Below, in pieces: positions 60,204 through 64,000 of a stretch of DNA of 64,000 nucleotides. The position numbers were made by a program, and so were the translations under genes. The first letter of the stretch is position 1; each line of letters begins with the position of its first letter. The notes under the pieces are model-generated. The model worked only from the letters and a program-made list of their open reading frames with translations, was not told where the DNA came from and did not search any database. This DNA comes from Stenotrophomonas sp. ZAC14D1_NAIMI4_1 (GTDB lineage Bacteria; Pseudomonadota; Gammaproteobacteria; Xanthomonadales; Xanthomonadaceae): positions 4,492,125 to 4,556,124 of the forward strand of contig NZ_CP026001.1 of NCBI RefSeq assembly GCF_003086775.1. Reading direction: 5' to 3'.

Positions 60204-60305
60204 GCGGACCCGCTGGGACGGCCTGGAGGAAGTGGGTGCCGGCACGCATCCTGCGTACCGGCACCAGGTCCCCTCCCCGGGAACGCGCGGATCAGTGGAT
60301 GTTGA

Positions 60306-60895: not shown

Positions 60896-61912
60896 TCAGG
60901 CCTCGACGGTGACCCGCCAGCCCCCTGCATGCGGCTGCCAGTCGAATTCCACCGGCAGGAATTTCTCGATCAGGCGCGCGTTGCTGGCCAGGTGGTCGCT
61001 GATGACGTGGGTGGTGAAGCTGCCGCCCCCGGCCAGGGCCATCGGCAACAGCAGCTGGTCGGACAGGTACTCGCCGACCCATGCGCCACCGCTGAGGTAG
61101 GTGCGTACCTGGCCAGCCAGGCGTGCGCCCACCTGCTCGGCCGACACACCGCGCTCGCCGTGGCCATCGAACACTTCCACGTGGTCGCCGTGGCGCACGC
61201 GCACCATCGCCACGTTGCCCGGGCCCAGTGCCGGCCGCACCGACTGCACGTGGCGCGGGTGCGCGTCGACGCCGAGCTCATCGGCCAGCACCTGCAGTTC
61301 GCGCAGGCCGATGCTGCTGGACAGGCCGGACATCACCACCTGCGCCTGCATCGAATCCAGTGCCGGGCGCTGCTCCATGCACGGCACCTGCAACGTCCCG
61401 CACGGCTGCACCTGCAGCTCGATCACGCCGCCGCCGGCCGGGTGGAAGCCGTGCTGCAGCAGCTGCATCGAGGCCTGCACGCCCATCCGCGCCAGTGACG
61501 GCAGGTAGCTGTCGGCGATGAAATCTGCGCTGGGCGCCAGCGGATTGTGGGTGCCGCCTTCCAGGCGCAGCCGCGACGGCCCCTGCGCGCGCCACAGCGC
61601 CGGCAGCACGGTCTGAAGGACCAGGGTGGCCGAGCCGGCACTGCCGGTGGCGAAGTGATACTCGCCAGCGCTCACCACGCCCGGCTCGAAGCGCAGCGAG
61701 GTCGCGCCCAGCGTGGCACCGTGCGTGCAGGCGTTGCCGACCCGCGCGGCGGCATTCACCGCGGTCAGGTGCTGGCGCATCAGCCCGGGCTTGCGGCGGA
61801 TCGCGCGGATGTTCTGCAGGGTGAAGCCGATGCCGGTGCACAGGCTCAGGGTCAGGGCCGAGCGCAGCAGCTGTCCGCCGCCGTGCCCGCCATCAAGTTC
61901 GATCATGTCCAT
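60896..61912 (-). CDS. rtcA: RNA 3'-terminal phosphate cyclase
   Basis: 338 residues from ATG 61912, with GGAGG 10 bases upstream. Signature: IELDGGHGGGQLLRSALTLS at the N terminus, then RAIRRKPGLMRQHLTAV and HGATLGATSLRFEP; the C-terminal SFTTHVISDHLASN holds the candidate adenylated His. RtcA converts RNA 3'-phosphate to a 2',3'-cyclic phosphate with ATP, which is the substrate form for RtcB. It follows rtcB by 83 bases. The spacer contains two copies of the palindrome GCCGCGCGCGGC (61958-61969 and 61979-61990). Confidence 0.94.
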   Translation of the reverse strand: MDMIELDGGHGGGQLLRSALTLSLCTGIGFTLQNIRAIRRKPGLMRQHLTAVNAAARVGNACTHGATLGATSLRFEPGVVSAGEYHFATGSAGSATLVLQTVLPALWRAQGPSRLRLEGGTHNPLAPSADFIADSYLPSLARMGVQASMQLLQHGFHPAGGGVIELQVQPCGTLQVPCMEQRPALDSMQAQVVMSGLSSSIGLRELQVLADELGVDAHPRHVQSVRPALGPGNVAMVRVRHGDHVEVFDGHGERGVSAEQVGARLAGQVRTYLSGGAWVGEYLSDQLLLPMALAGGGSFTTHVISDHLASNARLIEKFLPVEFDWQPHAGGWRVTVEA

Positions 61913-61995: not shown

Positions 61996-63222
61996 TCATC
62001 CCTTCACGCACACCACCTGGCGCAGCGTGTGCACGATCTCGACCAGATCGCGCTGGGCCTCCATCACCGCCTCGATCGGCTTGTAGGCCGCCGGCGATTC
62101 ATCCACCACCTCCGCATCCTTGCGGCATTCCACGTGCGCGGTGGCCTTGGCGTGCTCATCCACGGTGATCAGCTTGCGCGCCTGGGTGCGGCTCATCACG
62201 CGCCCGGCACCGTGGCTGCAGCTGTGGAAGCTGTCCTCGTTGCCCAGCCCGCGCACGATGAAGCTCTTGGCACCCATGCTGCCCGGGATGATGCCCAGCT
62301 CGCCCTTGCGCGCACTCACCGCGCCCTTGCGGGTCAGCATCACTTCCTTGCCGAAGTGCACTTCGCGGTTGACGTAGTTGTGGTGGCAGTTCACCGCCTC
62401 GGCCTGGGCCTCGAACGGCTTGCTGATGACCGTACGCACGGCCGCCACCACGTTGCGCATCATCACCTCGCGGTTCATGCGTGCGAAGCGCTGCGCCCAT
62501 TCCACCGCGAACACATAGTCACCGTAGTGCTGGCTGCCCTCGGGCAGGTACGCCAGGTCCTGGTCGGGCAGGTTGATCATCCAGCGGCGCATTTCCTGCT
62601 TGGCCAGTTCGATGAAGTAGGTGCCGATGGCATTGCCCACGCCACGCGAACCGGAGTGCAGCATGAACCACACGCGCTGGTCCTGGTCCAGGCACACTTC
62701 GACGAAGTGGTTGCCGGTGCCGAGGGTGCCCAGGTGCTTGAGGTTGTTGGTGTTCTTCAGGCGCGGGTGGCGCTCGCAGATCAGCGCGAAGTCATCGACC
62801 AGCTGCTTCCAGCCTTCGATGGCCAGCTCCGGCGGCGTGTCCCAGCTGCCCTTGTCACGGCCGCCACGGGTCACGCTGCGGCCATGCGGCACGGCCCGCT
62901 CGATCGCGCTGCGCACCGTCGACAGGTTGTCCGGCAGGTCGCTGGCATCCAGCGTGGTGCGCACGGCCATCATGCCGCAGCCGATGTCCACGCCCACCGC
63001 AGCCGGAATGATGGCGCCGACGGTCGGCACCACCGAGCCCACGGTTGCCCCCTTGCCCAGGTGCACGTCGGGCATCACCGCGATCCACTTATGGATGAAC
63101 GGCAGCCTGGCGATGTTCTGCAGCTGCTCGCGTGCCTGGTCTTCCAGCGGCACGCCGCGCGTCCACAGCTTGATGGGTGCAGCGCCCGGCTGCTGGATCA
63201 CGTCACGGTTCAAGGTGGTCAT
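61996..63222 (-). CDS. rtcB: RtcB family RNA ligase (second paralogue, Ro/Y RNA operon)
   Basis: 408 residues from ATG 63222, chosen because AAAGGAAA precedes it and the family begins near here; the longer frame upstream runs through the Y-RNA region. Motifs match the other RtcB: MPDVHLGKGATVGSVVPT, GVDIGCGM with the metal-binding Cys82, GTGNHFVEV, HSGSRGVGN, VNCHHNYVNREV and SCSHGAGRVMSR with the guanylated His near 335. The gene is followed by rtcA and preceded by rsr and the Y-RNA array, the layout known from Salmonella rsr-yrl-rtcBA. It is therefore the repair ligase linked to Ro/Y RNA. Confidence 0.94.
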   Translation of the reverse strand: MTTLNRDVIQQPGAAPIKLWTRGVPLEDQAREQLQNIARLPFIHKWIAVMPDVHLGKGATVGSVVPTVGAIIPAAVGVDIGCGMMAVRTTLDASDLPDNLSTVRSAIERAVPHGRSVTRGGRDKGSWDTPPELAIEGWKQLVDDFALICERHPRLKNTNNLKHLGTLGTGNHFVEVCLDQDQRVWFMLHSGSRGVGNAIGTYFIELAKQEMRRWMINLPDQDLAYLPEGSQHYGDYVFAVEWAQRFARMNREVMMRNVVAAVRTVISKPFEAQAEAVNCHHNYVNREVHFGKEVMLTRKGAVSARKGELGIIPGSMGAKSFIVRGLGNEDSFHSCSHGAGRVMSRTQARKLITVDEHAKATAHVECRKDAEVVDESPAAYKPIEAVMEAQRDLVEIVHTLRQVVCVKG

Positions 63223-63262
63223 GGTGATGTTTCCTTTCATCCAATACAAAAACAAAGAAGGT

Positions 63263-63345
63263 GCGGTGACAAAGATGGCCGAACATTCCGGGACTTGAAC
63301 CCGACCCTGAAGGGCTACCGATGTAGTTCGGCCTGCATTCCCCGC
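63263..63345 (-). ncRNA. Y-RNA-like element C (minimal copy, nearest rtcB)
   Basis: 83 bases on the minus strand. Inner stem: GGCCGAAC (63326-63333) with GTTCGGCC (63277-63284). Outer stem: GCGGGGA (63339-63345) with TCACCGC (63263-63269), one G-A mismatch. Inside is a short anticodon-like hairpin CCCTTCAGGG (63305-63314) and a T-arm CGGG-TTCAAGT-CCCG (63289-63303). It lacks D arm and acceptor. Internal loop AATGCA opposite ATCTTTG and the 3' tail GCACCT are shared with copy A. It is likely a reduced Ro-binding RNA. Confidence 0.8.
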
Positions 63346-63362
63346 GCAACGAAAGCGAAGGT

Positions 63363-63499
63363 GCCGGCAGCACGACGAGGGGTGGAGGAACATCCTGCTC
63401 TACCACTGAGCTACCGCTGTGTTGCCACAGCGGGCGGGGCTCGAACCCGCGACCCGGAGCTTAGAAGGCTGTAGTTCCTCCGGCATTCGCAGTGCCGGC
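63363..63499 (-). ncRNA. Y-RNA-like element B with a circularly permuted, near-complete tRNA core
   Basis: 137 bases on the minus strand. Inner stem GGAGGAAC (63474-63481) with GTTCCTCC (63384-63391); outer stem GCCGGCA (63493-63499) with TGCCGGC (63363-63369), although CCGGCA-CTGCGAA-TGCCGG can also fold locally. The core, in order: anticodon-like arm AGC-CTTCTAA-GCT, variable CCGGGTC, T-arm GCGGG-TTCGAGC-CCCGC (63434-63450), acceptor 3' strand CCGCTGTG, tetraloop GCAA, acceptor 5' strand CACAGCGG (63414-63433), D-arm GCTC-AGTGGTA-GAGC (63397-63411). Acceptor and T-arm abut as in tRNA. This is a tRNA permuted between D arm and anticodon arm, as in YrlA-type Y RNAs. Confidence 0.85.
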
Positions 63500-63511
63500 G
63501 TTGAAACAGGT

Positions 63512-63620
63512 GCGGTGACAAAGAGGGGTGGAACATCGTCTCCCCACAACCGGCAGGACACGCGGGATTCGAACCCGACCCCGAAGGGACAACCCATGTA
63601 GTTCCACCAGCATTCACCGC
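63512..63620 (-). ncRNA. Y-RNA-like element A (nearest rsr)
   Basis: 109 bases on the minus strand. Outer stem GCGGTGA (63614-63620) with TCACCGC (63512-63518), perfect. Inner stem GGTGGAAC (63601-63608) with GTTCCACC (63527-63534), perfect. Core: anticodon-like hairpin CCCTTCGGGG (63579-63588), T-arm CGGG-TTCGAAT-CCCG (63563-63577) and next to it an imperfect acceptor-like arm (63537-63562). No D arm. The internal loop TCTTTG between the two stems and the tail GCACCT are shared with element C. Confidence 0.8.
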
Positions 63621-63643
63621 GAAAAACGTGAATTCCCGGTCCT

Positions 63644-63671
63644 GCCCGGCTGGCCCCATTGCCAGCCGGGC
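63644..63671 (-). other. Perfect hairpin between rsr and the Y-RNA array
   Basis: GCCCGGCTGGC and GCCAGCCGGGC pair over 11 bp around AATGGG. There is no T-run, so it is not an intrinsic terminator. It could be a processing site or an insulator that separates the rsr mRNA from element A. An alternative pairing joins GGCAGGAC here with GTCCTGCC in element A. Confidence 0.65.
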
Positions 63672-63710
63672 GGTCCCTGGCGACATCCTTGCCGCCGTCC
63701 AACATCGTGT

Positions 63711-64000
63711 TTACAGCGGCATGTCCTCGATGCGCTCGACCCAGCCGCTGCCATCGCCCGGCGCCTGCGCGAACTGCGCCAGCAGGTCGAACACCGCATC
63801 GCTGAAGCCGCCGATATGCAGCACGTCCTCGCGCTGCACGGTCTGGCTGCTGGCTACCGGCTGCAGGTCGATGCACACCAGCCGTGCCTGCGGGCAACGC
63901 TGCTTCAGCGCATCCCAGGCCTGCATCGTGGCCGTCGCGCCGCCCCTGCGGGTGTCACGCCAGCTTTCGTTGTCCGACACCAGCACCACCAGGTCGACCT
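63711..64000 (-). CDS. rsr: Ro60/Rsr TROVE-domain protein, C-terminal fragment
   Basis: The last 96 residues are present; the gene starts beyond the window. They form the end of a von Willebrand A domain: VDLVVLVSDNESWRDTRRGG (strand with DxS-like MIDAS region), then AWDALKQRCPQARLVCIDLQ and VQREDVLHIGGFSDAVFDLL. This pattern is that of Ro60 homologues (Rsr), whose vWA domain closes the HEAT-repeat ring that holds Y RNA and the 3' ends of misfolded RNA. The stop codon TAA is followed by the hairpin and the Y-RNA elements. The TROVE ring part is not visible here, so the assignment rests on the vWA tail and on context. Confidence 0.82.
   Translation of the reverse strand, partial: VDLVVLVSDNESWRDTRRGGATATMQAWDALKQRCPQARLVCIDLQPVASSQTVQREDVLHIGGFSDAVFDLLAQFAQAPGDGSGWVERIEDMPL

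Follow-up and report, generated by a model that had tools for sequence, protein, structure and literature searches.

What is encoded in the 488-base spacer between rsr and rtcB of Stenotrophomonas sp. ZAC14D1_NAIMI4_1, and why should an RNA repair operon carry several unlike RNA elements side by side? We analysed a stretch of 64,000 nucleotides from this genome (hereafter, the window). The spacer occupies positions 63223-63710 on the minus strand and contains three elements, A, B and C (Table 1). The organism's own locus beyond the window (L009) holds the entire rsr and a divergent rtcR. A sigma-54 type site, TGGCAC-N5-TTGC (1 exact), lies upstream of rsr at L009 5434-5448, outside the window; when up to two mismatches are allowed, the scan is at chance level overall (17 versus 17.8). 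The divergent rtcR, the sigma-54 type promoter, rtcB and rtcA mark the locus as an RtcR-controlled RNA repair operon. The nearest source-named relatives of Rsr are from Stenotrophomonas. The window also holds a GC-rich hairpin (60235-60265) like the stem of Rfam BTH_s1 (21.8 bits against a cut-off of 74); it is probably an intergenic terminator. According to passages of a report on Salmonella (PMC7790460), the operon there is written rsr-yrlBA-rtcBA, it is induced upon tRNA cuts in the anticodon loop, and the CARF domain of RtcR binds 5′ tRNA halves with a cyclic phosphate. For the role of Y RNA in RNA-repair operons, the same passages list several possibilities (PMC7790460).

Table 1. Positions of the genes and RNA elements in the window (strand, minus throughout).
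Feature	Position	Strand	Remarks
rtcA, RNA 3′-terminal phosphate cyclase	60896..61909	-	Pfam PF01137
rtcB, RNA ligase	61996..63222	-	Pfam PF01139
Element C	63263..63345	-	adjoins rtcB; Y stem plus a variable-arm-like hairpin and a T arm; D arm absent
T arm of element C	63289..63303	-	
Element B	63363..63499	-	Y stem bearing a circularly permuted tRNA (predicted) that includes an anticodon arm
Inner Y stem of B, 3′ strand GUUCCUCC	63384..63391	-	5′ strand GGAGGAAC at 63474-63481
GG of B (tRNA positions 27-28)	63394..63395	-	partner CC at 63456-63457 (positions 42-43)
D arm of B with U8 and A9, UAGCUCAGUGGUAGAGC	63397..63413	-	
Acceptor stem of B	63414..63433	-	closed by GCAA loop
T arm of B	63434..63450	-	
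Anticodon hairpin of B, AGC-CUUCUAA-GCU	63458..63470	-	triplet UCU at 63463-63465
Element A	63512..63620	-	adjoins rsr; Y stem plus a variable-arm-like hairpin, a T arm and a short acceptor-like hairpin; D arm absent
T arm of element A	63563..63577	-	
rsr, 3′ part, Ro60-like	63711..64000	-	TROVE and vWA_Ro60 domains; cut off at window end

An earlier note on this DNA had described three Y-RNA-like elements on the rsr/rtcB strand, and this description is borne out. YrlA is the top Rfam match of all three elements by cmscan (B, 61.2 bits, E 1.2e-12; A, 36.6 bits, E 1.5e-5; C, 26.4 bits, E 0.013). None of the three in the window reaches the YrlA gathering score of 69 bits in this search. Because A and C score below it, we class them as Y-RNA-like and not as YrlA. 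All three have a two-part Y stem with an internal loop. The inner stems proposed in the note are present (A, GGUGGAAC/GUUCCACC; B, GGAGGAAC/GUUCCUCC; C, GGCCGAAC/GUUCGGCC), as are the CUAC and AUG junctions, the GCACCU tails and one T arm per element. For the outer stems, the covarying two-part form holds but the details were inexact: C has a G.A mismatch, and B can pair in more than one register. The note was right that the display modules differ, but it had overlooked the D arm, which among the window elements only B possesses, together with the closed acceptor stem and the anticodon arm of B. The folding energies of the single sequences are only mildly better than those of shuffled sequences (z = -1.86, -2.60 and -1.42 for A, B and C, respectively). 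Therefore, our case rests on comparison.

Relative to the Rfam YrlA consensus, B has a 13-nt insertion directly after CUAC, exactly at the anticodon hairpin. The anticodon arm of B has a 5-bp stem, the 7-nt loop CUUCUAA and a 5-nt variable loop. The CC after the hairpin can pair with the GG that follows A26 on the D-arm side. The Y stem branches off between positions 28 and 29, on the 5′ side of the anticodon stem, and the natural tRNA ends are joined by the closing loop. By a strict test, B and 84 further elements have the full tRNA secondary structure in permuted order. The reading of element B as a display of a circularly permuted tRNA that retains its anticodon arm is well supported by these sequence comparisons. 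It should be mentioned that the minimum-energy fold of B alone differs from the tRNA fold (-63.8 versus -53.1 kcal/mol, the latter computed for a tRNA-like fold that omits part of the outer stem). Single-sequence folding was therefore dropped as proof of the tRNA fold.

For the comparison, we sampled 41 rsr loci of the genus and family and the best 80 of 420 relatives in a named collection; rsr was present in 29 family genomes outside the genus, 25 of which were kept as loci. A structural scan of the 121 rsr-downstream regions for the two-part Y stem gave 374 elements; the opposite strand gave 38 and shuffled sequence gave 49, which means that false positives occur. With identical elements counted once, 311 were distinct at a score of at least 12. 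Text patterns divided these into 134 with T and D arms, 98 with a T arm and no recognised D arm, and 79 with neither, the 98 being an overcount because some 'T arm only' elements show a variant D arm (e.g. L034, L038, L045 and L050). B falls into the first class, and A and C fall into the second.

An alignment of 42 elements (A2) had 98.0% of its cells paired, and 18 of its pairs vary on both sides. Its covariation score was 0.396, versus 0.145 for shuffled and 0.05-0.09 for slid pairing. The earlier note had staked its reading on stems conserved by covariation in related genomes, and for the B type they stand far above both the shuffled and the slid controls. RNAalifold, run unaided, predicted two of the three hairpin pairs; pairs 27-43 and 28-42 were not predicted. 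Because the hairpin was among the criteria by which the rows of A2 were chosen, its three hairpin pairs are biased. Therefore, the test was redone on elements chosen by spacing alone, that is, on full-type elements with exactly 20 nt from CUAC to the T stem, with the hairpin not required (79 of 134). Every one of these 79 elements forms the five pairs of the anticodon stem. When the hairpin partner was slid along the same elements, 14-39% were paired. When the 3′ letters were redealt, a mean of 182 of 237 cells were paired (maximum, 197), as against the observed 237. Position 27-43 is G-C in 44 elements and C-G in 35, and the three hairpin pairs appear in five combinations. The most variable positions of the arm are 34 (1.79 bits) and 36 (1.62 bits), followed by 38 (1.24 bits) and 35 (1.19 bits); the least variable are 32 (0.64 bits), 33 (0.57 bits) and 37 (0.52 bits). 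C32, U33 and A37 are kept in 69, 71 and 72 of the 79 elements, respectively, and 21 different triplets occur among them. At loci with two arm elements, the loops are unlike in 12 of 13 cases, sister genomes counted.

We found the arm in members of Xanthomonadales, Burkholderiales and Neisseriales, as well as at single loci labelled Verrucomicrobia (L095) and Phycisphaeraceae (L126). Variovorax paradoxus is among the bearers, with such elements at L081 and L113. The strict test did not find it at 23 of the 95 loci with a full-type element, among them the sole enterobacterial locus (L101); a few of these 23, for example L129, show a shifted form of the arm. Full-type elements of several relatives pass the Rfam cut-off (e.g. 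L022, 74.4; L026, 72.1), and no element of L011 or L013 passes it. At L021-L025, the second element (154-156 nt) bears the arm, and an additional hairpin separates its D arm from the 3′ strand of its Y stem.

Are these elements tied to rsr? A model built from alignment A2 (R1) scored above 60 bits in 16 of 16 rsr-bearing genomes of the genus and in none of the other 75 (91 in total), in which the best score was 54.4 bits. Weak R1 matches in the organism's own genome, near 1057441-1057677, overlie tRNA genes. In the family sample of 395 genomes, R1 at E 1e-19 matched 33 of the 34 genomes with rsr and 0 of the 361 others. The elements lie beside rsr, as is usual for Y RNA, and R1 matches track rsr in both samples. 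It should be added that rsr itself is patchy in the genus sample (16 of the 91 genomes G000-G090); therefore, the operon seems to be often lost or gained.

The one exception among the rsr-bearing family genomes is G231 (L037), whose spacer holds a mini element and a T-arm element and no full tRNA-like element detectable by R1. The mini element of L037 retains an anticodon-type hairpin, ACC-CUGUCAC-GGU. Such a hairpin turns up in 14 of 43 distinct mini elements, as against a mean of 0.2 and never more than 3 in 200 rounds of shuffling. Five of these 14 elements are close kin (L033, L034, L035, L038 and L045), and a few of the mini elements were parsed wrongly (L027). In the other groups of elements, the hairpin was seen in 3 of 30, 0 of 9 and 1 of 75, with shuffled means of 0.3, 0.1 and 0.7. 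That mini elements keep the hairpin alone suggests that it is worth keeping on its own. The first element of L100 (4120-4196) is a mini Y RNA with the hairpin CGA-CUGUAAA-UCG and a second hairpin around CUGCAAA; its loops resemble those of tRNA-Tyr and tRNA-Cys.

How closely do the arms follow real tRNAs? Un-permuted B scores 33.5 against the organism's own tRNA-Gly(CCC); the own tRNAs compared with tRNAs of other amino acids score 30.25 at the median (18.5-37). B is thus roughly as similar to the own tRNAs as these are among themselves. The loop of B is that of the own tRNA-Arg(UCU), a tRNA that ranks only tenth in overall similarity. Against the tRNAs of the own genome and partial sets of others, 47 of 85 loops (14 of 39 distinct ones) are identical to a real tRNA loop, and 6 of 24 triplets correspond to no anticodon. 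The association between triplet and flanks exceeds permutation when all loops are taken (2 of 2000 permutations reached it); when only distinct loops are taken, it is borderline (49 of 2000). By these comparisons of overall similarity, loops and triplets, the mimicry is real but loose. Exact copying of host tRNA loops is only partly supported, given that 25 of the 39 distinct loops have no match in the sets compared. ARAGORN accepted 84 of 85 un-permuted arm elements and 0 of 134 elements as they stand. Because it also accepted 202 of 255 controls in which the anticodon segment had been shuffled, and 18 of 48 armless elements, we gave it little weight and discarded it as proof of tRNA identity.

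What might such RNAs do? The comparison supports the view that the three elements share the two-part Y stem and that their tips are exchangeable displays made of tRNA parts. We think it probable, with a good deal of room for doubt, that they act as Rsr-bound mimics that serve as a nuclease tether, as an anticodon-nuclease decoy, or as both. In this reading, the spacer gives rise to three Y RNAs belonging to a repair operon, rsr-yrl-rtcB-rtcA, from which rtcR diverges. Broken tRNAs would turn the operon on via RtcR, a step demonstrated in Salmonella. Rsr would bind and retain the Y stems, so that the tRNA parts at the tips would be visible to tRNA-handling enzymes. Tether and decoy seem to be the most likely uses of the displayed parts. 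As a tether, the RNA would tie Rsr to the exonuclease PNPase, and tRNA-like debris would be degraded. The modules may tether Rsr to different partners, a hypothesis that the earlier note had put forward. As a decoy, the anticodon arm would occupy anticodon-loop nucleases while RtcA and RtcB mend the real tRNAs, and it would make B a better look-alike for such nucleases than an armless form.

Passages on Salmonella bear on the decoy use. In them, most 5′ fragments of the Trp, Tyr, Cys and Phe tRNAs stop at position 36, between adenines (PMC7790460). YrlA itself is described as uncut by the nuclease, and the authors propose that YrlA may inhibit it; as an alternative, they propose that Rsr and Y RNAs may aid tRNA decay (PMC7790460). 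In our arms A36, the letter before the Salmonella cut site, occurs in only 6 of 79, a count uncorrected for kinship. Its rarity would fit an uncut decoy. In a bolder form of the idea, Rsr Y RNAs would be modular tRNA decoys (full tRNA, T arm only or anticodon hairpin only) with fast-changing anticodons as baits in an arms race with anticodon-loop nucleases. We regard this form as unlikely. If it were true, the operon that makes the baits would also be the one that detects and repairs the cuts.

The main rival to mimics with exchangeable tips, which we find conceivable though somewhat unlikely, is that the module is simply a handle and gate for PNPase (the RYPER complex), in which the arm is a structural brace and the triplet drifts unread. 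Such a role is known for Deinococcus from passages of two reports (PMC4726728, PMC8394870). It agrees with the 23 of 95 loci at which the full-type elements are armless and with the distinct loops that match no real tRNA loop of the sets compared. It does not sit well, however, with the conservation of loop positions 32, 33 and 37 described above, or with the 14 mini elements that hold the hairpin without the rest of the tRNA.

The earlier note knew of few operons with three different modules in one spacer, and the counts contradict it. Over 107 loci (repeated element sets dropped; best 80 of 420 named relatives included), five elements occur in 6, four in 26, three in 46, two in 20, one in 4 and none in 5. 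At least three elements are present in 78 of the 107 loci and at least two in 98. Three in one spacer are therefore ordinary, and we ruled out that the three copies are exceptional. These loci are not independent, since several of L010-L050 and of L051-L068 are the same or sister genomes. Of the five loci without an element at threshold, L020 and L052 stop just after rsr, L118 and L123 have elements upstream of rsr instead, and L071 has one element below threshold. Upstream of rsr, L099 carries a tRNA gene cluster (725-2822, with 16 Rfam tRNA matches), and L107 and L129 carry tRNA-like runs as well; rtcR was not found in its usual divergent position beside rsr at these three loci.

In six close relatives (L012-L017) the three elements occur in the same order. 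In the closest relative (L011) A is absent and C is longer, and our C has no acceptor-like hairpin, which L011-L013 have at the same place. These differences, together with the low Rfam scores, would suit the view that A and C are decaying copies without function and that B alone matters. We consider this improbable. T-arm elements adjacent to rtcB recur across Xanthomonadaceae with conserved stems, even though their acceptor-like hairpins differ. That A and C display a T arm and a variable-arm-like hairpin is supported by this comparison.

It is very improbable that the chief role of the spacer is that of an rtcB leader or attenuator in which the last element is a terminator or a site of processing. 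At Xanthomonadaceae loci, T makes up 6.6 of the 16 bases after the last element (n = 40) versus 4.8 (n = 87), but this excess is mild, and we rejected a terminator after the last element of the array. Moreover, a terminator needs neither one to five varied modules per spacer nor the letters of D and T arms.

The weakest alternative is a permuted tRNA gene, in which RtcB would ligate the ends left once the Y stem is excised, and opening of the acceptor would yield a working tRNA; the gene order fits, RtcB is encoded adjacently and the un-permuted elements are tRNA-like, but we find it scarcely credible, because the acceptor of B is closed by a loop, CCA follows the 7-nt strand in only 4 of 85 elements, acceptors vary between 1 and 19 contiguous pairs in length and are most often closed by GCAA (18) or GAAA (13), and triplets that differ between close relatives on a similar body would lead to codon misreading. 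B is accordingly an unlikely source of working tRNA.

Passages of the literature already describe operons with multiple Y RNAs, tRNA mimicry and circular permutation. An anticodon arm in a Y RNA is not described in the literature passages covered, and it may already be in print. Because arm-bearing elements of other species pass the Rfam cut-off, these RNAs are known as members and the arm is perhaps undescribed. The arrays suggest that Y RNAs are assembled from exchangeable tRNA arms, which could explain why several unlike Y RNAs occur in one operon. The apparent tRNA fold of B suggests that such cells use tRNA look-alikes where broken tRNAs are sensed, repaired or destroyed. With an arm whose frame is kept while its triplet changes, in an operon that is induced by cuts in Salmonella, the nuclease-decoy idea is sharply testable.

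In the permuted tRNA genes of red algae and archaea, the 3′ half is encoded ahead of the 5′ half. The same order is seen in B; unlike in those genes, the new ends here form a Y stem, CCA is rarely encoded and a role in translation is unlikely. By our comparison and by passages on it, YrlA (RF02553; Salmonella domain, PDB 6CU1) shares with B the two-part Y stem, the T arm, the D arm, the closed acceptor stem, the permuted order and the position beside rsr (PMC11472068, PMC8394870). B differs from it in the anticodon arm, which is an insertion against the Rfam consensus and is absent from the enterobacterial L101. The Deinococcus complex of Rsr, Y RNA and PNPase (RYPER), in which Y RNA tethers Rsr to PNPase, likewise has a Y stem for Rsr and an end displayed to a partner, according to passages on the published model (PMC4726728); our elements, likened to it by sequence, differ in that several different displays lie in one spacer. 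Finally, the Salmonella repair operon as given in the cited passages has the same parts, namely a divergent rtcR, rsr, Y RNAs, rtcB and rtcA, with two Y elements there and three here (PMC7790460).
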